Below, piece by piece: positions 4,582 to 13,766 of a DNA stretch of 36,076 bases (positions are counted from its first letter, which is position 1; every line of letters starts with the position of its first letter). The notes under the pieces were generated by a model that was given only the letters and a program-made list of their open reading frames with translations, was not told where the DNA came from and did not search any database. The DNA lies in contig SXID01000262.1 of assembly GCA_005772955.1 (NCBI GenBank), forward strand, positions 1-36,076, in the 5' to 3' direction. This DNA comes from Planctomycetia bacterium. GTDB lineage: Bacteria > Planctomycetota > Planctomycetia > Gemmatales > Gemmataceae. The translations under genes were made by a program, and so were the position numbers.

Positions 4582-5823
4582 ATGTCCTCTCCTTCTCCAG
4601 ACCGCCGCACGTTCATCGCGGGTTCCGCCGCGGGCGCGATCGCGCTCGGCGCCCCTGCTGTTCACGCACTCGGAGCTAACGAGAAACTCAACATCGGCCT
4701 CATCGGAAGCGGCAACCGCGGGCGCACCATCAGTCAGGAGTGCGTGAAGGCCGGGCACAACGTCGTTGCTGTCGCGGATATCGCCAAGTTCCGCCACGAC
4801 TTCATCATCGGGAAACTCGCCGAAGTCAAAGGCCCGAAACCGGCCGTCTACGACGACTACAAGCAACTCCTCGAACACAAGGGACTCGATGCGGTCATCA
4901 TCGCGACCCCGGACCACCACCACAAGGAACAGTTGCTCGCGGTCATGGCCGCGGGCAAGCACGCGTACTGCGAGAAGCCACTCAGCCACACCATCGAGCA
5001 GGGCAAGGAAATGGTCGCGGCCGTTCGGAAGGCCAAACGGATCGTGCAGGTCGGCAATCAGCGTCACAGCGGCGAACACTGGGCACGCGCCCGCGACGTG
5101 ATCCACTCCGGTGACTTCGGCGATCTGGTTTGGGTGAAGGTGTGGGACTGCCGCAACTGGATCAAGAAAGACCCGTTCGCGCCCCCAGCCACATTCAACG
5201 CGGCCCAGATCAAGGGCGTGAACTGGGACGCGTTCCTCGGCACCGCGAAGAAGGTTCCGTTCGACCCGGTTCGTTACTGGGCGTGGCGCTGGTACTGGGA
5301 CTACGCTGGTGGGTTGCTCACCGACATCGGCGCGCACCAACTCGACATCGTGCAGTGGCTCGGCGGCGTCGAGATGCCCAGGAGCGTGATCGCGAACGGC
5401 GGCACTTACCACTTCAAGCACTGGGAAACGCCGGACGTGGTTCACGGCGTCTGGGACTACGGCAAGTTTACGGCCACGTTCGCGGTCGAGTTCGTTAACG
5501 GATTCGATGGTGTGGGCGCCACGTTCTACGGCACGAAGCAAACGCTACACTGCGACGCGGACGCGGGTGGCACGATCAAGCTGTTCGACACGATCGAGAA
5601 ACTCACACCAACTATGAAGCCAAAGGCGGAGTGGAAGGTGGAGAACGAAACGCCACTGCACGTCCGCAACTGGCTGACTGCGGTGAAGGACAACAAAGAT
5701 CCGAGTTCGCCAATCGAGTTGGGGCACCGCGTCATCACCGCGGCGCACCTCGCGAACATCGCCTACCGCACAGGGAAGAAGGTGTTCTGGGACGCCAAGA
5801 AGGAACAGATCGTGAGCGGGTGA
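4582..5823 (+). CDS. Exported Gfo/Idh/MocA-family oxidoreductase
   Basis: This 413-residue NAD(P)-dependent oxidoreductase is of the type planctomycetes export for sugar or sugar-acid metabolism. It opens with a twin-arginine signal (DRRTFIAGSAAG, arginines at 8-9), implying folding with cofactor in the cytoplasm and Tat export. The Rossmann motif GSGNRG is at 42-47. The family signature EKP is at 132-134 (AYCEKPLSHT), whose lysine is the usual catalytic residue. Histidine- and tryptophan-rich substrate-side segments follow (HQLDIVQWLGG near 253), in the common GFO_IDH_MocA C-terminal fold. The substrate is unknown. The start is supported by the signal peptide. The upstream palindromic element isolates it from the lipoprotein gene. 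Confidence 0.93.
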   Translation: MSSPSPDRRTFIAGSAAGAIALGAPAVHALGANEKLNIGLIGSGNRGRTISQECVKAGHNVVAVADIAKFRHDFIIGKLAEVKGPKPAVYDDYKQLLEHKGLDAVIIATPDHHHKEQLLAVMAAGKHAYCEKPLSHTIEQGKEMVAAVRKAKRIVQVGNQRHSGEHWARARDVIHSGDFGDLVWVKVWDCRNWIKKDPFAPPATFNAAQIKGVNWDAFLGTAKKVPFDPVRYWAWRWYWDYAGGLLTDIGAHQLDIVQWLGGVEMPRSVIANGGTYHFKHWETPDVVHGVWDYGKFTATFAVEFVNGFDGVGATFYGTKQTLHCDADAGGTIKLFDTIEKLTPTMKPKAEWKVENETPLHVRNWLTAVKDNKDPSSPIELGHRVITAAHLANIAYRTGKKVFWDAKKEQIVSG

Positions 5824-5835
5824 ACAACCGGCATC

Positions 5836-5890
5836 GCGTAGCCGCGACCCGAGGGGAGCACGAACGCTCCGCTGCGCGTCGCGGCTACGC
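5836..5890. repeat. Paired AGCCGC-family palindrome
   Basis: GCGTAGCCGCGAC at 5836-5848 is perfectly complementary to 5878-5890. Inside, GGAGC (5855-5859) pairs with GCTCC (5866-5870). The same core appears in single copy at 15941-15966 and, in variant form, at 26036-26130 and 35544-35568. Here it fills the whole 79-bp gap between two genes and could act as a transcription terminator. Confidence 0.8.
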
Positions 5891-5902
5891 AGAGGTAGTT
5901 GG

Positions 5903-6646
5903 ATGTCCGACGAAAGCGCGTTCCTCGAAATGCTGAGGGCGAACCCCGCCGACGACACTGCGCGGCTCGTCTACGCCGACTGGCTCGACGAACGTGACGA
6001 ACCGCAAAAGGCACAGTACCTCCGCGCGGTTGCAGACCTCGCTTGGCTGACCGGAGGCACGCCCGAGTACACCGCAGCGGCCATCAGCCTGTTCACCGCA
6101 TGCCCACACACGGACCTGATGTGGCGCAACAAAACCGGCGCCCGGTTCGACGTGGTGCTGGAGCGGTTCGACGACAAGATTCGGGTGATCAGGCTCATCC
6201 ATGAGCGCATCGGTTGCGGCCTGGCCGGGGCAAAGGCGCTGGCCGAGTCAGTACCGGTGGCAATTTTCTCGTGGTTGCCGTTTGAAGCCGCTCTTCCCGA
6301 CCTATTGGCGTTCGGCCACCCGAACGCGGGGCGGATCGAGGCGTGCGTGCGCCCGACGGCATTGCCGCAAGGCGCCCCGGGCGCGGAGTTTGACATTCTC
6401 CTGTGTGCTTTGCACCCGGAAACGAGCTACGGGCGTAACTTCCCCGTTTATTTTTTTGTTGCCCAAACGCTGAGCCTCAGCACCGACGAAGCAACGGCCC
6501 GGCCCCGCTCCCTACCAGTGATGGTCGCCTCAGGTCTGCACTCGAAGGAAGTGATTGACTTTATTCATCAAATGAAGCTGGCGTGCAACGTCGGCCAAGG
6601 TCTCCCATCGGGCGCGATCCGCGTCGTACCCCGACTCCCGTCGTAA
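5903..6646 (+). CDS. TIGR02996 domain protein with ribosomal L7/L12 C-terminal-like domain
   Basis: This 247-residue protein starts with a TIGR02996 domain (residues 1-45: ESAFLEMLRANPADDTARLVYADWLDER), known mainly from Gemmata and relatives and often attached to repeat proteins. Residues about 81-150 closely follow the ribosomal protein L7/L12 C-terminal domain: FDVVL, then K92-x-x-VI, then a GxGLxxAKxLxES core at 104-116. In L7/L12 this surface binds translational GTPases; here the role is unknown. Residues 160-247 are not recognised. No signal peptide or membrane helix is visible, so it is probably cytoplasmic. A run of seven T residues at 6451-6457 is unusual for this GC-rich gene. The next gene starts 12 bp after the stop, with its ribosome-binding site directly at the stop. 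Confidence 0.85.
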   Translation: MSDESAFLEMLRANPADDTARLVYADWLDERDEPQKAQYLRAVADLAWLTGGTPEYTAAAISLFTACPHTDLMWRNKTGARFDVVLERFDDKIRVIRLIHERIGCGLAGAKALAESVPVAIFSWLPFEAALPDLLAFGHPNAGRIEACVRPTALPQGAPGAEFDILLCALHPETSYGRNFPVYFFVAQTLSLSTDEATARPRSLPVMVASGLHSKEVIDFIHQMKLACNVGQGLPSGAIRVVPRLPS

Positions 6647-6658
6647 GGAACCGCTCCC

Positions 6659-7588
6659 ATGTTCATCTTCGAGAAAGCCCCCTTCCCTTCGTGTCACGCG
6701 TCCACCATCGTGGAGCAGGAAGCGGGTAAGTTCATGGCCGCGTGGTTCGGTGGGAAAGCCGAAGGCGCGAAGGACGTCGAAATCTGGGCGAGCACGTTCG
6801 ACGGCAAGTCGTGGACCGAGCCGAAGGTGCTGGGCACCGAACCTGGGCAGCCGTGCTGGAACCCTGTGCTGTTCAAGACCGCGAAGGGCACGCTGGTTCT
6901 GTGGTACAAGGCCGGCCCGAAGCCGGATAACTGGACCGGGTACGTCCGTACGTCGCCTGATAGCGGCAAAACCTGGACCAAGCCCGAGATGATGCCGAGC
7001 ACGTTTATGGGCCCGGTGCGAGCCAAGCCGATTCAGCTCGCGAATGGTACTATTCTCGCCGGTACTTCGTGGGAGAGCTACAAGAACTGGGTGCCGTTCG
7101 TGGACCGCTCCACAGACAACGGCAAGACCTGGAAACGCTCGAACCCGTTCCCGGTCCCGGCCAAGTTCAACCAGATTCAACCGACTCTATTTGAAGGAAA
7201 AGACGGGAAGATCGTCGCGCTGATGCGGTCGAGCAACCCGCGTATGATCTGCCGCGCGGAATCGAAAGATGGGGGCGAGACATTCACTCCAGCGGAAGAG
7301 ACGAAGCTTGCGAACCCGAGCGCCGGCATCGACTGCGTGAAGACCAACGAAGGCGATGTCTTCCTGATCTACAACCCGAACGCGTTGCTCCGCACGCCGA
7401 TCAGCCTCGCGCGTTCCACCGACGACGGGAAGACCTGGAAGAAGGTCGTTGACCTCGATACCGAAATCGGCGAATACTCGTACCCTGCTATCATTCAGTC
7501 GGCCGCGGGTACTCTAGAGATCACCTACACGTGGAAGCGAACGCACATCAAACACCAGAGCGTGGACCCCAAGAAGTACCGGGACTGA
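6659..7588 (+). CDS. Sialidase-like (BNR/Asp-box) beta-propeller protein
   Basis: This 309-residue protein has four clear Asp-box motifs (S-x-D-x-G-x-T-W/F): at 99-106, 151-158, 202-209 and 253-260. They mark successive blades of a sialidase-type six-bladed propeller. Related bacterial proteins are annotated as exo-alpha-sialidase or sialidase-like glycoside hydrolases, and many cleave other sugars or only bind glycans. No signal peptide is visible, so unlike secreted sialidases it is probably cytoplasmic unless export is non-classical. AAGGAA at 6645-6650 sits eight bases before ATG 6659 and supports this start. The upstream stop is 12 bp away, so it is probably co-transcribed with the TIGR02996 gene. 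The substrate is not determinable. Confidence 0.87.
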   Translation: MFIFEKAPFPSCHASTIVEQEAGKFMAAWFGGKAEGAKDVEIWASTFDGKSWTEPKVLGTEPGQPCWNPVLFKTAKGTLVLWYKAGPKPDNWTGYVRTSPDSGKTWTKPEMMPSTFMGPVRAKPIQLANGTILAGTSWESYKNWVPFVDRSTDNGKTWKRSNPFPVPAKFNQIQPTLFEGKDGKIVALMRSSNPRMICRAESKDGGETFTPAEETKLANPSAGIDCVKTNEGDVFLIYNPNALLRTPISLARSTDDGKTWKKVVDLDTEIGEYSYPAIIQSAAGTLEITYTWKRTHIKHQSVDPKKYRD

Positions 7589-8070
7589 CCACCGTCCGCA
7601 TCCTTCCCACTCGCGAAGAAGAGGCGGAACTCCTCGTCCTCCGCGCGCTGGCGAAGGTGATGGACGAAGCCATCGTGATCCCCAACACGAACGTCAAGGT
7701 CGGGCTGGACGCGGTGCTTGGACTGCTTCCCGTGGTGGGGGATCTGGGAGGCGCCGCGATCGGCTCGTACATCCTCCGCGCAGCCAACCGGTTAGGCGTG
7801 CCCACAGTCGTGATCGCTCGCATGTTGTTCAACCTGCTAATCGACGCGGTGATCGGGTTCATTCCAATCTTCGGCGATTACCTCGACGTGCTATACCGGG
7901 CCAACGCGAAGAACGCAGCACTCGTGGTCGAAGCAGTGGAGAACCGCCAGACGGCCGCGCGGTCAAGTTGGTTGAAGCTGATCGCCACGTTCGGGGTGTT
8001 CCTGCTAATCGTGGGCGGGAGCCTCCTAGGGACAGTATTTGTGGTGAAGCGGTTGTGGAACGCGCTGTGA
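7531..8070 (+). CDS. DUF4112 membrane protein
   Basis: This protein of up to 179 residues carries the DUF4112 pattern: LAKVMDEAIVIPNTNVKVGLDAVLGLLPVVGDLGG followed by NLLIDAVIGFIPIFGDYLDVLYRANAKN. Two hydrophobic hairpins hold the repeated PVVGD/PIFGD turns, and a C-terminal transmembrane segment lies at about residues 150-172. The start is uncertain. GTG 7531 overlaps the sialidase gene by 58 bp, and its first about 20 residues look like out-of-frame translation of that gene. A CTG near 7585 is possible. The first in-frame ATG (7660) would cut into the conserved domain. Function is unknown; the family is predicted to be an integral membrane protein. Tight overlap suggests co-transcription with the sialidase-like gene. 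Confidence 0.83.
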   Translation: MEANAHQTPERGPQEVPGLTTVRILPTREEEAELLVLRALAKVMDEAIVIPNTNVKVGLDAVLGLLPVVGDLGGAAIGSYILRAANRLGVPTVVIARMLFNLLIDAVIGFIPIFGDYLDVLYRANAKNAALVVEAVENRQTAARSSWLKLIATFGVFLLIVGGSLLGTVFVVKRLWNAL

Positions 8071-8207: not shown

Positions 8208-10253
8208 ATGAGCGAACAACCCGGTGCCCCCGCGGAGCCGGCCAAGCACATCCCACACCAGTCCTTCTGGCTGTTCGTGATGTGTCTGACCGGGGTCGAT
8301 TATTTCTCGACGCTCGGCTACCAGCCGTCGATCGCATACCAGAACGCTGGCCTGCTCGCGCCGATTGCAACGGTGGTGTTGGTGCTGGTCACGCTATTCG
8401 GTGCGTTGCCCATCTATGCCTACGTCGCGAAGAAGTCCTTCGAGGGACAAGGCTCAATCGGGATGCTCGCGAAGCTCGTCTCCGGGTGGCCGGGCAAGGT
8501 CATGGTTCTCGTGCTCCTCGGCTTCGCCGCGACTGGGTTCGTCATCACCAAGACGCTGTCCGCTGCCGACGCCGCCGTTCACCTGCTCGAGAACCCGAAC
8601 TGGCCATGGCAGCCCGGCCCCGGTGAAACCGCCCAGCTCATCGCGGTAACGATGCTGCTACTCATGCTGCTTGGTGCAATGTTCATGCGTGGGTTCCGCG
8701 AGGTGATCGGGCTGGCCGCCGTTATCGTCGCGGTCTACCTCACGCTCAATCTCGTCGTCCTCGGCGCTGGCGTGAACTACCTGATCGACCACCCGGAGAA
8801 ATGGCACGCGTGGATCATCCGGCTCGAACGCGGCGAATGGTATCTGGCGCACAATCCGCTCGGTTCAGTCGCGGGCTTCGGCGGCATGTTGGCAGTTAGC
8901 CTGCTACTGTTCCCCAAACTCGCGCTCGGCCTCAGTGGATTCGAGACCGGTGTCGCGGTGGCGGCCCACGTCCGCGGGCGCGCGGATGACGACCCCAAGA
9001 ACCCGATGGGCCGGATCGCCAACATCCGCAAACTGCTCATCACCGCCGCGGTCATCATGTCGGTGTATCTGCTCGCGACCTCGGTCGTCATCAGCACCCT
9101 CATCGAGCCGGAGGAGATTACCCCGGTGAAAGCAGAGGGCGGGCTGCCGAAGGACACGAACGGCAAAGAGCTGAAACACGTCGAGGACTGGCCGAAGACA
9201 CCCGCCGCTGGCCGCGCGCTAGCGTACATCGCGCACGGACAAGGCGGGTACGGGAAGTCCATCTGCCGGCTATTCGGCCCGACCTTCGGCACAATCTACG
9301 ACATCAGTACCATCGTCATCCTCTGGTTCGCCGGCGCCAGCGCAATGGTGGGACTGCTCAACCTCGTACCACAGTACCTCCCGCGATACGGCATGGCGCC
9401 CGAGTGGGCGAGCGCGGTGCGCCCGTTGGTGTTGCTCTTCACCGGGGTGAACCTGCTCGTCACCTGGGTGTTCAAGGCGAACGTGGACGCGCAGGGCGGG
9501 GCCTACGCGACCGGCGTCCTCATGCTGATGACGAGCGCGTGCGTGGCCAGCGTCATCGACGTGTGGCGCGAGCGCGAGGGCCGGTGGTATCAGCGGCTGT
9601 CGTGGCGATTCGTCCTCATTACCGCTGTGTTCGTCTACACCACGGTCGCGAACGAAGTGGAGAAAGGCTTCCAAGGGCTGATAATTTCGCTGTTCTTCAT
9701 CGCGACCATCCTCGCCATGTCGTTCTGGTCGCGGTGGTCGCGCAGCCGCGAACTGCGGTTCGCGGGGTTCAAGATACCGGACGCCGAGTCGCGGCTGATG
9801 TGGGACACGCTCCGGGACCTGGAGCTATCGGTGCTGGTGCCGCACCGGCCGGGTCGGCGGAGCCTCGCGAACAAGGAATCGCAGATCCGCCGCGAACACC
9901 GCATCCCACGCGACCTCGTCATCATTTTCGTCCAAGTGGAACTGGCTGACGCGAGCGACTTCGTGAACGAACCGGTACTGCGTGTGGAGCAGGAGGACGG
10001 CCGCTACGTGTTGAAGATCGCCGGGGCATCCTCGATCGCGCACACACTCGCGGCGTTGGCTCTGGAGATGGCGAAGGTGGGGCGCCCACCGGAGGTTCAC
10101 TTCGGGTGGACCGACGACAGTCCGGTGTCCGGCACGCTCGGCTTCCTGCTGTTCGGCGAGGGCAACGTACCGTGGATGGTGCGAGACCTGATCCGCCGCG
10201 CCGAACCAGATGAGGCGAAGCGCCCGCTCATCATCATCGCGGGCACAGCTTGA
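8208..10253 (+). CDS. APC-superfamily amino acid/cation permease
   Basis: This 681-residue multi-pass transporter has an N-terminal motif (GVDYFSTLGYQPSIAY) and helix pattern resembling the amino acid-polyamine-organocation superfamily, including the KimA-like potassium/amino acid branch. About 12 hydrophobic segments occupy roughly residues 20-520, with a charged extracytoplasmic insert near 300-345. The last about 150 residues (after SRWSRSRELRFAGFKIPD) form a soluble C-terminal domain, probably cytoplasmic and regulatory. It could import an amino acid or potassium; the sequence does not decide. The 137 bp before ATG 8208 contain no recognisable element and no strong ribosome-binding site. 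It ends convergent to the kinase gene, with an inverted repeat between them. Confidence 0.82.
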   Translation: MSEQPGAPAEPAKHIPHQSFWLFVMCLTGVDYFSTLGYQPSIAYQNAGLLAPIATVVLVLVTLFGALPIYAYVAKKSFEGQGSIGMLAKLVSGWPGKVMVLVLLGFAATGFVITKTLSAADAAVHLLENPNWPWQPGPGETAQLIAVTMLLLMLLGAMFMRGFREVIGLAAVIVAVYLTLNLVVLGAGVNYLIDHPEKWHAWIIRLERGEWYLAHNPLGSVAGFGGMLAVSLLLFPKLALGLSGFETGVAVAAHVRGRADDDPKNPMGRIANIRKLLITAAVIMSVYLLATSVVISTLIEPEEITPVKAEGGLPKDTNGKELKHVEDWPKTPAAGRALAYIAHGQGGYGKSICRLFGPTFGTIYDISTIVILWFAGASAMVGLLNLVPQYLPRYGMAPEWASAVRPLVLLFTGVNLLVTWVFKANVDAQGGAYATGVLMLMTSACVASVIDVWREREGRWYQRLSWRFVLITAVFVYTTVANEVEKGFQGLIISLFFIATILAMSFWSRWSRSRELRFAGFKIPDAESRLMWDTLRDLELSVLVPHRPGRRSLANKESQIRREHRIPRDLVIIFVQVELADASDFVNEPVLRVEQEDGRYVLKIAGASSIAHTLAALALEMAKVGRPPEVHFGWTDDSPVSGTLGFLLFGEGNVPWMVRDLIRRAEPDEAKRPLIIIAGTA

Positions 10254-10357: not shown

Positions 10358-13300
10358 CTATTCCGGCCGGGTATCCCACACCGCGACCTGTCCTTCGCCA
10401 CCGGTCACGAGCAGCTTGCCGTCCGCAGAGAACTCGATGACGGTGACCGGCGTCGAGTGCCGACGGAGCCCGAACAGCTCCTGCGCCGTCCGTAGATCCC
10501 AAAACTTGACCTCACCCGTCGCACACCCGCTCACGAGGGTGCGACCGTCGGGCGTAGCACCCAAGCCCGTGACCCGGCCGACGTGACCGAACAGTTTCAT
10601 CTCTTCCCGTCCACCAACAGTCCAGACTCCTACCACACCGTCGCGCCCCGCGACCGCGATTCGAGCGCCCGCAGGCAAGAACCGGAACGCGGCTTGCTCG
10701 TCGGCGGGGACCGTTGTCAGCCGCTCCGGTGTGCCGATGACCCACACGCCCACGCCGGTCGTGGTGCGAGCGGCGATGTACAGCCCGTCATCGGAGATGG
10801 TGATGTCGCGCACCGGACGCCGGTGCCCGGTGTCGATTGTGCCCACTGCGGTCTTGTCCTTGACCGCCCACACGCTCACACGCCCCGAATCATCGCCCAC
10901 GGCCAATCGCACCCCGTCCGGGGTGAGAGACGCGGCCGTCGGCGTGAGGTAGTCTGGTAACTTCACGCGCAGCCGCTCCTCGACCACGCCGCCAACGGAA
11001 CAAACGACCGCGTCTCGCCCGTCGAAGACGACGCCGCGGCGCGTCCCGTTTTCCAGGAGTTGCACCGCGCGGAACCTGCGTTCGCCACCCTCGACGACTG
11101 TTGCTTTCCGACTACCCTTCTCGAACTCCGTGAGTTCGGTGTCCGTGGTGATGACGAACTCGCCACTCCCGGGGCGCGCGACACTTGGGTGTACGCCGAT
11201 TGCGGTCACGCGTCCGACCGTCGTGACACCCAAGTCGCGCGCATCAGACGGAAGATTCCATGAACGGATGACGCCGTCAGCGCCAGCGGTGAACAGCGTC
11301 TTGCCGTCGGGGGAGTAGACCCCAGCGCGCACCGGACCGATGTCGCCGGTGGGGAACTCCTGGAACGGAAGTTGCACACGGCCGAGGGTTCCGCTGAGGG
11401 CAAACCCTCCTCGGCCCGGCACGATCACGACCCATTCGACCCTTCCGGCGGCCGGCAACAAACGCGGCACCTGGCTGGGAGCCAGGAAGAGCGCGCCGTG
11501 GTCGAACCCGAGTATCGTTGTCCCGTCGTCAGCGATCGCCAGCGCGTTAACCCACCGCCCCGCGGGGTATCCTGGTCCCGTACCCGGGAGAAGGTCGGCA
11601 GTGTAGCAACTCACCGCTCCGTCGTTGTCCGCAACGACGACGCTCTTCCCGTCGCTCGAAACATGGATGCGGACGACAACCCGTTTCGCCCCCTCTGGAA
11701 CGACGATCGCCCGTTCGACTTCTCCGAAGGTCTGCCGCGTGAGTCGGCCGCTCCGCCCACCGGCGTAGAGTGCGTTGCCATCCGGCGAGAGCGCGAAGCA
11801 GTGCGAGCCGGCGGCAAAATTACGAAGGTCAGGGGACGCCTCAATAGGCGCTCCGTTCGGTGCAACGCCCCATCCCGTCACGCCCGTCGATTGGCTCTTG
11901 GTGAGGAGCAGCGTACCGCCCCTCGCGAACGCGACCTGGTGGAGTGCACTGTCGTGTGCCTTCACCGTGCCGAGTTGCTTGCCGGTGGCGCGGTTCCAGA
12001 CGGCGAGCGTGCCGTCGGCGTGGCCGCTAGCGAGCCGGGCGCCGTCAGGCGACACCGCGAGCGCGGTCACCGGGCCGGCGGGGCAGACGATCAGCAGCCG
12101 CTCGGCCTTCACCTGACGTGAGAGGTAGTCGTGCGCGAAGTCCGGAGACTCCGAGGGCGGACCCGTGCGGCGTGCCGAGTCAAGCGCGTCGGTAGCGGAT
12201 TTCGTGTTCCCGGCGCGCCAGGCGTGGAACGCATCCCGTACATGGCGGACGTACTCGCGATGCCGGTCGGTGCGGTCTCGGTCGGCCTGGTCACGAACGA
12301 AGGTGTCTCGTTCCGTCCTGAGCTGGGCCGTTTGGAACGAGTTTCGATACGAGTTCCAGGTGCCGAGAAGCGTTACGGCCAGTGCCACGACGGCGAGAAC
12401 CACCACGGCGACGAACTGGTCGTTGCGGCGGACCCAGCGGAGCGTGCGACCGGACCACGCGAGCGGGCGGGCGACCGTGGGTTGTCCGTCGAGGAACCGA
12501 CGCAGGTCGTCGGCCAGGTCGATCGCAGTGCGGTACCGTTCGCTCGTGGTGACGGCCATGGCCTTCAGACAGATCGCCTCCAGGTCGCGCGGGATGTCGG
12601 GCCGCAATTGCCGCGGGTGCATGGCTCTCCCCTCGACAGACTGGCGCAGGATCTCCACGTCGCTGGCCCCATCGTAGGGCGCGCGGCCCGCGACCAGTTC
12701 GTAGAGCACTACCCCCAGTGCGTAAACATCGGCCGGCGGGCCGATGTCCTGGCGCCGGGCCTGGGCTTGTTCTGGAGACATGTATTTCGGTGTGCCGAGG
12801 ATCTGCCGCGTGCCGGTCTCCGATGGGCCGCCGCGATCGGCCAGTTTCGCCAGCCCGAAGTCCACCAGGCGCGGGATGTAGTACTCGCCGCGCAAGTGCA
12901 CGCTCCCAGCGGGTGGTTCGTCGTTCTCCGCAACCTTCATCTCCTGTAGGATCACGTTGTTCGGCTTCAGGTCGCGGTGGAGTACACCGCGGTCGTGCGC
13001 GTGCTGAACCGCGTCAGCCATGGTGGCGATGAGCCGGGCCGCCTGCCGCACGGGGACGGGAAACGCCTGCCGGTCGATCCACCCGGCGAGTGTCTGACCG
13101 GGGCAGAACGTGGTAGCGATGAAGCAAATCGGGCCGACCTCGCCCCACTCGTATACCGGCACCAGATTAGGGTGGTCGAACTCAGAGGCCGCGAGCGCTT
13201 CGAGTTTGAGTCGACGTTTCGCGTCCTCGTTCATCAGCATGTCGGGGCGCGGAACCTTGAGCGCAACCTCGCGCTGGAGTTTGGGGTCGTAGGCGAGGAA

Positions 13301-13624
13301 CACTATCCCGCACCCGCCCTTGCCGAGTTGCCGGCGCAGTTCAAACCGGCCAATCCGGTGTGGGCCGCTCGGAACGGGGACCGGTTGGCTCGGACGGTCG
13401 ATGCGGTCTGGATCTGGAAGCACTTCGCCGCGCGAACCCTCATTGAACCCGTCCAGGTGCAGCGGTATCACGGGGTGTTCAGTCGTGTTGGGCGGGGGAT
13501 TGACTGGCGGGAACGAGGCGTGGACCGTGAGATCTTTCACGTCCCCACCCTCAAGCCCCTGATCATAGGCTGCAAGGAACCGGGCCAGGGTCTCGTCGAG
13601 TTTCAGTGAGTCGGACGAATCCAT
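10358..13624 (-). CDS. Membrane Ser/Thr protein kinase fused to WD40 repeats
   Basis: This 1088-residue protein joins a Hanks-type kinase to a WD40 sensor domain, a common planctomycete architecture. Numbered from ATG 13624, it shows the glycine loop GKGGCG at 101-106, catalytic lysine in VALK at K123, HRDLKPNN with the catalytic aspartate at 218, DFG at 255-257 and SPEQ in the activation segment. All catalytic residues are present. A proline-rich leader precedes the kinase. A transmembrane helix lies at about 404-422, followed by a charged coiled segment and then WD40-type repeats from about 510 to the end (SPDGARLASGHADGTLAVWN and similar). The kinase is cytoplasmic and the WD40 part is on the far side of the membrane. 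An in-frame ATG at 13696 adds 24 residues, but these come from an AT-rich stretch that looks like leader. Neither start has a strong ribosome-binding site. Confidence 0.93.
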   Translation of the reverse strand: MDSSDSLKLDETLARFLAAYDQGLEGGDVKDLTVHASFPPVNPPPNTTEHPVIPLHLDGFNEGSRGEVLPDPDRIDRPSQPVPVPSGPHRIGRFELRRQLGKGGCGIVFLAYDPKLQREVALKVPRPDMLMNEDAKRRLKLEALAASEFDHPNLVPVYEWGEVGPICFIATTFCPGQTLAGWIDRQAFPVPVRQAARLIATMADAVQHAHDRGVLHRDLKPNNVILQEMKVAENDEPPAGSVHLRGEYYIPRLVDFGLAKLADRGGPSETGTRQILGTPKYMSPEQAQARRQDIGPPADVYALGVVLYELVAGRAPYDGASDVEILRQSVEGRAMHPRQLRPDIPRDLEAICLKAMAVTTSERYRTAIDLADDLRRFLDGQPTVARPLAWSGRTLRWVRRNDQFVAVVVLAVVALAVTLLGTWNSYRNSFQTAQLRTERDTFVRDQADRDRTDRHREYVRHVRDAFHAWRAGNTKSATDALDSARRTGPPSESPDFAHDYLSRQVKAERLLIVCPAGPVTALAVSPDGARLASGHADGTLAVWNRATGKQLGTVKAHDSALHQVAFARGGTLLLTKSQSTGVTGWGVAPNGAPIEASPDLRNFAAGSHCFALSPDGNALYAGGRSGRLTRQTFGEVERAIVVPEGAKRVVVRIHVSSDGKSVVVADNDGAVSCYTADLLPGTGPGYPAGRWVNALAIADDGTTILGFDHGALFLAPSQVPRLLPAAGRVEWVVIVPGRGGFALSGTLGRVQLPFQEFPTGDIGPVRAGVYSPDGKTLFTAGADGVIRSWNLPSDARDLGVTTVGRVTAIGVHPSVARPGSGEFVITTDTELTEFEKGSRKATVVEGGERRFRAVQLLENGTRRGVVFDGRDAVVCSVGGVVEERLRVKLPDYLTPTAASLTPDGVRLAVGDDSGRVSVWAVKDKTAVGTIDTGHRRPVRDITISDDGLYIAARTTTGVGVWVIGTPERLTTVPADEQAAFRFLPAGARIAVAGRDGVVGVWTVGGREEMKLFGHVGRVTGLGATPDGRTLVSGCATGEVKFWDLRTAQELFGLRRHSTPVTVIEFSADGKLLVTGGEGQVAVWDTRPE

Positions 13625-13766
13625 CAGCAATTGACCAGACGTGGTCGGGCGATCGCCCCGCCCCAAAGTATCAAGTTTACTATATCCAGTACGCATTGCA
13701 GAACCGCGATTTCCGTGAAATCACCCGCGGTTGGCCTGCTATCCTGTCCTGATCCGCACTGCTCAT

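Follow-up and report, generated by a model that had tools for sequence, protein, structure and literature searches.

The question raised by this locus is what a piece of the ribosomal stalk is doing in a protein that opens with a TIGR02996 domain. The gene lies in the window, by which we mean the whole 36,076-nucleotide stretch analysed here (contig SXID01000262.1 of a Planctomycetia bacterium). Its open reading frame runs from an ATG at 5903 to a stop that ends at 6646, giving a product of 247 amino acids, and we divided it as follows.

5903 to 6646, plus strand: gene for a TIGR02996 - L12 CTD - L12-like protein of 247 amino acids (open reading frame, Pfam, NCBIfam, model)
5909 to 6040, plus strand: TIGR02996 domain, residues 3-46 (NCBIfam score; helices in the model)
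6041 to 6142, plus strand: helical linker, residues 47-80, with the conserved W74 at its end before the L12 domain
6143 to 6352, plus strand: complete L7/L12 C-terminal-type domain, residues 81-150 (Pfam PF00542, hhalign, model, superposition on 1CTF)
6365 to 6643, plus strand: probable second, degenerate L12-like domain, residues 155-247, called the third domain below (strand and helix order, shuffle-controlled profile comparison; fold search suggestive)

The match to TIGR02996 at residues 3-46 scored 62.9 bits against a curated cut-off of 29.05 (NCBIfam, E 1.7e-17), and together with the coordinates of the open reading frame it confirmed the TIGR02996 fusion that an earlier, sequence-only reading had placed at 5903-6646. 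An AlphaFold2 model of the full protein, built on an alignment of 22 proteins, had a mean pLDDT of 84.2 and a pTM of 0.72. Five helices fell within residues 3-78, those of the linker spanning 54-69 and 72-78, and W74 was invariant (22/22 aligned proteins). Around the gene, a scan that may not suit Planctomycetes promoters found no sigma-70-like promoter and no terminator-like site.

The same reading had recognised an L7/L12 C-terminal domain (CTD) at residues 81-150, a range that proved right by Pfam, by hhalign, in the model and by superposition on 1CTF. Residues 82-123 matched PF00542 above its gathering cut-off (29.5 bits versus 25.9, E 9.1e-7), the match spanning positions 1-43 of the 67 in the profile. 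The predicted model had a strand at 82-89, helices at 92-103 and 107-114, a strand at 119-125, a helix at 127-137 and a final strand at 145-151, which is the complete beta-alpha-alpha-beta-alpha-beta order of the L7/L12 CTD across residues 82-151. When 22 fusion domains were compared with 30 ribosomal L12 CTDs by hhalign, the two profiles aligned over 66 columns with a probability of 99.4 and an E value of 1.8e-21. Solved structures matched by sequence up to E 10 were bL12 chains only (best E 0.0027). A chance or truncated match to L12 was ruled out by the full fold in the model and the strong profile comparison.

Residues 81-150 superposed on E. coli 1CTF with a Z of 11.6 at 1.1 Å (VIA-align, 66 aligned residues, 32% identity). 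L12 entries took the top Foldseek ranks, with a best E of 1.7e-3; no Foldseek match had an E of 0.001 or better, either here or for the model of the third domain. The profile and fold searches neither moved the segment to another fold nor left it without a match to L7/L12. Chains of the ClpS adaptor superposed on the same residues with a Z of 11.1 at 1.6 Å (73 aligned), a likeness in overall fold by which ClpS and L12 are not separated, but with only 12% identity. No ClpS family was listed by Pfam or NCBIfam up to E 10, in searches where the HMMER filters drop weak matches. The fold is common to L12 and ClpS, and to judge by its sequence the domain is L12. We conclude that it is a genuine homologue of the L7/L12 CTD outside the ribosome.

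The window protein itself is not ribosomal bL12, since its score against the bL12 equivalog TIGR00855, 26.1 bits, fell below the curated cut-off of 84.4. In the ribosome, the N-terminal domain of L12 dimerises and anchors the protein to uL10. We found no such domain here: PF00542 was the sole Pfam match up to E 10, and residues 1-80 consist of TIGR02996 and the helical linker. The genome also carries a separate bL12 on another contig, C39, as a full open reading frame that matches 67 of 67 profile positions (E 1.2e-23). Compared with bL12, the window protein shares homologous sequence and the complete fold of the CTD, and in most of its relatives basic residues are retained at the corresponding sites of helices 4 and 5. 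It differs in that TIGR02996 replaces the domain for dimerisation and uL10 binding, in the probable degenerate second copy behind, in the location of its gene outside the rpl operon, in a change of R73 to His, and in strong divergence.

We surveyed 95 genomes of the family with the L12-domain profile and, counting in the class survey described below, found 23 fusion proteins in 17 of the 95, so the fusion is no one-off assembly error. Full fusions numbered 16 in 12 of the 19 genomes of the genus, with two each in G029 and G050 and one each in G037, G061 and G152. The G152 protein, whose first L12-like domain fell below the profile cut-off, was counted through a whole-length match to the window protein at 33% identity, and it stands outside all trees and all counts out of 22. 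A class survey of 397 genomes with a profile running from TIGR02996 to L12 returned no fusion outside the family among the best 9 candidates scored per genome, a depth at which a weak fusion could be missed. Scanning contigs with the window protein produced 112 pattern matches, none of them a relative, and a search of plasmids gave no match to it; in PHROGs there was one weak match, to the TIGR02996 part only. Two expectations of the sequence-only reading were thus borne out: that this is a non-ribosomal copy, by the TIGR00855 score, the absent N-terminal domain and the separate bL12, and that a survey might turn up the same fusion, by the 23 proteins that share the TIGR02996-L12 architecture.

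The window protein resembles other TIGR02996 proteins of Gemmata and its relatives in carrying that domain at its N-terminus, but differs from them in the added L12 domain. TIGR02996 had 42 matches in its own genome and 14 to 96 in each genome of the genus, and 16 out of about 1,109 matches in the 19 genus genomes (about 1.4%) carried an L12 domain.

Two further kinds of match turned up in these searches. Several genomes (G027, G051, G053, G054, G067, G073, G078, G089 and others) gave matches of about 30 residues to helices 4-5 of L12, which sit in other open frames and appear to be isolated L12-like motifs, lacking the remainder of the domain. G055 has, at C147 (L107), a second complete rplL-like protein including the N-terminal part, beside another bL12. 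It is a possible bL12 paralogue, and as another complete rplL-like protein it was not counted as a fusion.

Behind the L12 domain, strands and helices followed one another across residues 162-244 of the full model as they do in L12, apart from one additional short helix, and the third domain modelled alone (pLDDT 79.6) showed the plain order. The first three Foldseek matches of the latter model were L7 entries (E 0.06 to 0.1, probability 0.93 to 0.96). By VIA-align it fitted ClpS with a Z of 6.6 and the L7/L12 CTD with a Z of 4.9, and penicillin-binding proteins followed close behind; with such low Z values and such neighbours, structure alone does not settle the second copy. In a profile comparison, 14 third domains against 22 first domains scored 24.0 (probability 34.5), while 100 column-shuffled controls scored at most 10.3. 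The third-domain pair of P0001 and G152 alone reached a probability of 89.7 against the first domains (E 1.9e-6). Pfam found no second PF00542 match within residues 155-247 of the window protein, and none in its G152 relative. These comparisons make residues from about 155 to 247 a likely second, degenerate L12-like copy, which the sequence-only reading does not mention, just as it is silent on the fixed locus described below. The third domain of the window protein was clearly recognisable in pairwise comparison only in G152, a member of another genus (z 26), compared with a z of at most 4.4 against 14 proteins of its own genus, and across the 95 genomes searched this subtype was found in G000 and G152 only.

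The surroundings of the gene are conserved, and three features define the site.

4582 to 5823, plus strand: Gfo/Idh/MocA oxidoreductase, upstream, conserved neighbour (Pfam PF01408; synteny)
5834 to 5890, no strand: palindromic dispersed repeat (REP-like) in the gap before the gene (own-genome matches; inverted pair)
6659 to 7588, plus strand: BNR_2 (sialidase-like) gene, downstream (Pfam PF13088, 260.3 bits; synteny)

The BNR_2 gene begins 12 bp after the stop of the fusion gene and is, by synteny, a conserved neighbour. It lay directly downstream in 11 of the 12 genus genomes that bear the fusion gene, the exception being G006, whose contig stops there; the oxidoreductase lay directly upstream in 8 of the 12. 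Five genomes (G001, G011, G014, G015 and G017) lack the gene, and in these oxidoreductase and BNR gene adjoin, about 120 to 430 bp apart. For two others, the contig ends at this point in G003, and no BNR gene was found in G018, which is 65% complete. Three genomes have two tandem copies of the fusion gene, and the second G012 copy sits elsewhere, off the oxidoreductase-BNR site. This pattern of presence and absence between constant flanks marks the gene as a cassette at a fixed site. The repeat contains an exact inverted pair (5837-5848 and 5878-5889), and the stretch 5824-5902 had 61 matches in its own genome, a count that includes the window's own and takes many places on both strands. The palindromic repeat might promote recombination here.

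Further downstream, a DUF4112 gene at 7531-8070 shares about 58 bases with the end of the BNR gene when called from its first GTG; its true start may lie further in. A 681-amino-acid protein without a Pfam match (8208-10253) is also conserved, next to the BNR and DUF4112 genes, in the majority of the genus genomes inspected. On the minus strand at 10358-13696 is a Ser/Thr kinase-WD40 protein. Many PADLOC PD-T4-6 models match its kinase part, which probably reflects that they describe kinases in general.

Within the cassette the parts diverge at very different rates. Mean pairwise identity among 15 genus proteins was 79% for TIGR02996, 29% for the linker, 32% for the L12 domain and 19% for the third domain. 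Between G007 and G009, in DNA windows of 100 columns, flanking genes were mostly 91-99% identical and the L12 part 58-79%. Synonymous differences for this pair were 28.2 over 49.2 sites in the L12 part, 11.0 over 34.2 in TIGR02996 and 31.0 over 210.8 in the BNR gene (L12 part versus BNR gene, p 3.5e-9). When only codons of identical residues were counted, the L12 part still exceeded the BNR gene (13/38 versus 31/284, p 4.5e-4), and five pairs, which are not independent, all went in the same direction (p 0.0001 to 0.022). Misalignment could produce high apparent synonymous change in the L12 part, but the identical-residue count keeps the direction, with weaker p values. Finite values of dN/dS for the L12 domain ranged from 0.16 to 0.49, several pairs being saturated, which places the L12 frames under constraint. 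Such an excess of silent change fits exchange of the module, or a more ancient common ancestor of it, better than rapid point mutation in situ.

We also examined the ancestry of the domains. Those of the genus formed one clade (100/99) in a tree built without fus_G012b and without any fusion domain from another genus, and trees joining fusion domains to the bL12 of the host subclade were rejected (p-AU 0.0058 and 0.0139). Repeated fresh copying of the host bL12 CTD was rejected on these grounds, with long branches as a caveat. In a wider tree, made without fus_G029a and fus_G012b and with 12 of 30 outside bL12 sequences, a single clade of all fusion domains was not rejected (p-AU 0.46).

Together these data lead us to favour an adaptor acting outside the ribosome, with modules of L12/ClpS fold that bind a varying partner, a reading to which we give about an even chance of being right and which we prefer over, in falling order of probability, docking to translation GTPases, a by-product of paralogue expansion and a conflict system. 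The favoured adaptor is backed by the complete L12 fold, the homology found by hhalign, the second copy and the separate bL12, and the contrast between a constant TIGR02996 end and a variable remainder supports it as well, as do the excess at silent sites, the third-domain subtype shared with another genus, the spread over 17 family genomes and the constraint on the L12 frames. That the partner varies is suggested by sequence divergence, and relaxed constraint could yield much of that picture too, though not the silent-site excess. The L12/ClpS-type fold would serve as a protein-docking surface that once had the ribosomal stalk's partners and that may have been turned, in this family, to partners differing between strains. 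TIGR02996 would be the constant end that ties the protein to a cellular site or complex, and the modules may be exchanged by recombination. The adaptor role of ClpS would be our favoured functional analogy for the window protein. Open-licence literature, in which TIGR02996 is never named, yielded no function for that domain.

The strongest of the alternatives, though a doubtful one, is that the L12 domain still docks EF-G, EF-Tu, IF2 or RF3 and recruits or sequesters them off the ribosome, in line with the docking or decoy role that the sequence-only reading put forward. These are the factors that the L12 CTD binds according to the available part of a published account (PMC12548414). ClpS, a protease adaptor, superposes almost as well, so the shared fold by itself gives no pointer to GTPases. 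Six positions of the L12 CTD (K65, V66, I69, K70, R73 and K84 in E. coli numbering) are presumably those that contact the GTPases. At these the window copy has K, I, I, R, H and K, five of them identical or conservative, and R73 is lost. It was the sole member with His in place of Arg73, which the 21 other members compared all retain, and this counts against docking by the window protein itself; the relatives G005b and G004a keep all six positions. Among the 22 domains a basic residue was kept at K65 in 16, at K70 in 18, at R73 in 21 and at K84 in 16, so that the four basic contact positions stayed basic in 71 of 88 cells, versus 19 of 88 at four further positions where bL12 has an invariant Lys. 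This difference speaks for a stalk mimic, but a control from the same hairpin mostly removed it: at strict identity the contacts were kept in 58/88 cells and hairpin positions 74, 76, 77, 79, 82 and 88 in 87/132, both 66%. We therefore rejected a specific retention of the GTPase contacts. Docking to translation GTPases is possible. In the tree the fusion domains diverge strongly while bL12 hardly changes, and such divergence is unlike what a conserved contact with EF-Tu and EF-G would predict.

What most favours a remaining link to translation factors, if weakly, is a likeness to the bL12 of the host. In one subclade, 4/4 fusion domains share the three extra loop residues of their host's bL12; in the other (n=12), the short loop of the host recurs in 8 and its Gly at position 81 in 9. 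This likeness in loop length and at position 81 fits a stalk mimic, though the trees reject fresh copying. Parallel change imposed by a common partner would account for it, as would ancient conversion or long-branch error in the tree, and the loop match may also be chance in a variable loop, where 4 of the 12 differ. The bL12 of the short-loop subclade is itself unusual for so conserved a domain: in a comparison of the bL12 of 13 genus genomes it has three residues fewer in the loop before helix 4, and it carries T and G at sites occupied by I and A in the other subclade.

A bolder version joins these elements into a fast-diversifying stalk mimic off the ribosome, in which tandem L12-CTD modules on a lineage-specific TIGR02996 scaffold would bind the cell's translation GTPases or bait stalk-docking toxins or phage factors, with loop and motif shifted in parallel with host bL12 because both would face the same partner. 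We consider this full combination rather improbable.

Unlikely too, and somewhat more so, is that the fusion is one more combination thrown up by the expansion of TIGR02996 paralogues, with little or no function. The abundance of the domain (42 matches in this genome alone) fits such a by-product, as do the absence of the gene from at least 5 genus genomes and the degenerate motif-bearing residues of several members. Against a by-product, all but one fusion among the matches listed were free of internal stops, the finite dN/dS of the L12 domain indicates constraint, and the architecture recurs under five other genus codes (G029, G037, G050, G061 and G152).

Least likely of all is a conflict or defence module in which the L12-like domains serve as bait for, or recognise, stalk-docking toxins or phage factors and vary because their opponents vary. 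Against it stand a neighbourhood of oxidoreductase, BNR and DUF4112 genes and the lack of any mobility gene noticed among the neighbours scanned. PADLOC (2023 library, in which an undescribed system would go unnoticed; E 0.001) gave no match for the window protein or for the BNR, DUF4112 and 681-amino-acid products. Its attractions are the fast modular divergence at a fixed site, with presence, absence and doubling of the gene, and the existence of stalk-docking enzymes such as Cami1, described as 'ribosomal stalk-captured' in the title of Mogila 2023 (as cited in PMC11229360) and present with L12 in PDB 8phj, a structure of Cami1 on the 70S ribosome. Insertion of L12/ClpS domains in a conflict system has also been published, going by the available text of PMC7159879.

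Extraribosomal L12/ClpS domains are in print, so the kind is already known. The available portions of two papers describe them inserted in vWA proteins of beta-propeller conflict systems in Bacteroidetes (PMC7159879) and in HTH-membrane proteins beside Skillet-2 lipocones (PMC12419801). The window protein resembles both in using the fold off the ribosome as one building block among several and differs in its partner domains, those portions describing no TIGR02996 and no tandem. Open-licence literature held no report of an L12/ClpS domain on a TIGR02996 protein, of a tandem with a degenerate copy, or of a cassette diverging so fast at a fixed site. Within the reach of this search, what is new is the joining to TIGR02996, the tandem arrangement and the fast-diverging cassette.

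The meaning of the finding depends on what the modules bind. If they bind translation factors, control or protection of translation off the ribosome would have evolved in one bacterial family. If they do not, a part of the ribosome would have been turned into a variable binding module, and the fusion would offer a first handle on the cargo of the very abundant TIGR02996 domain.
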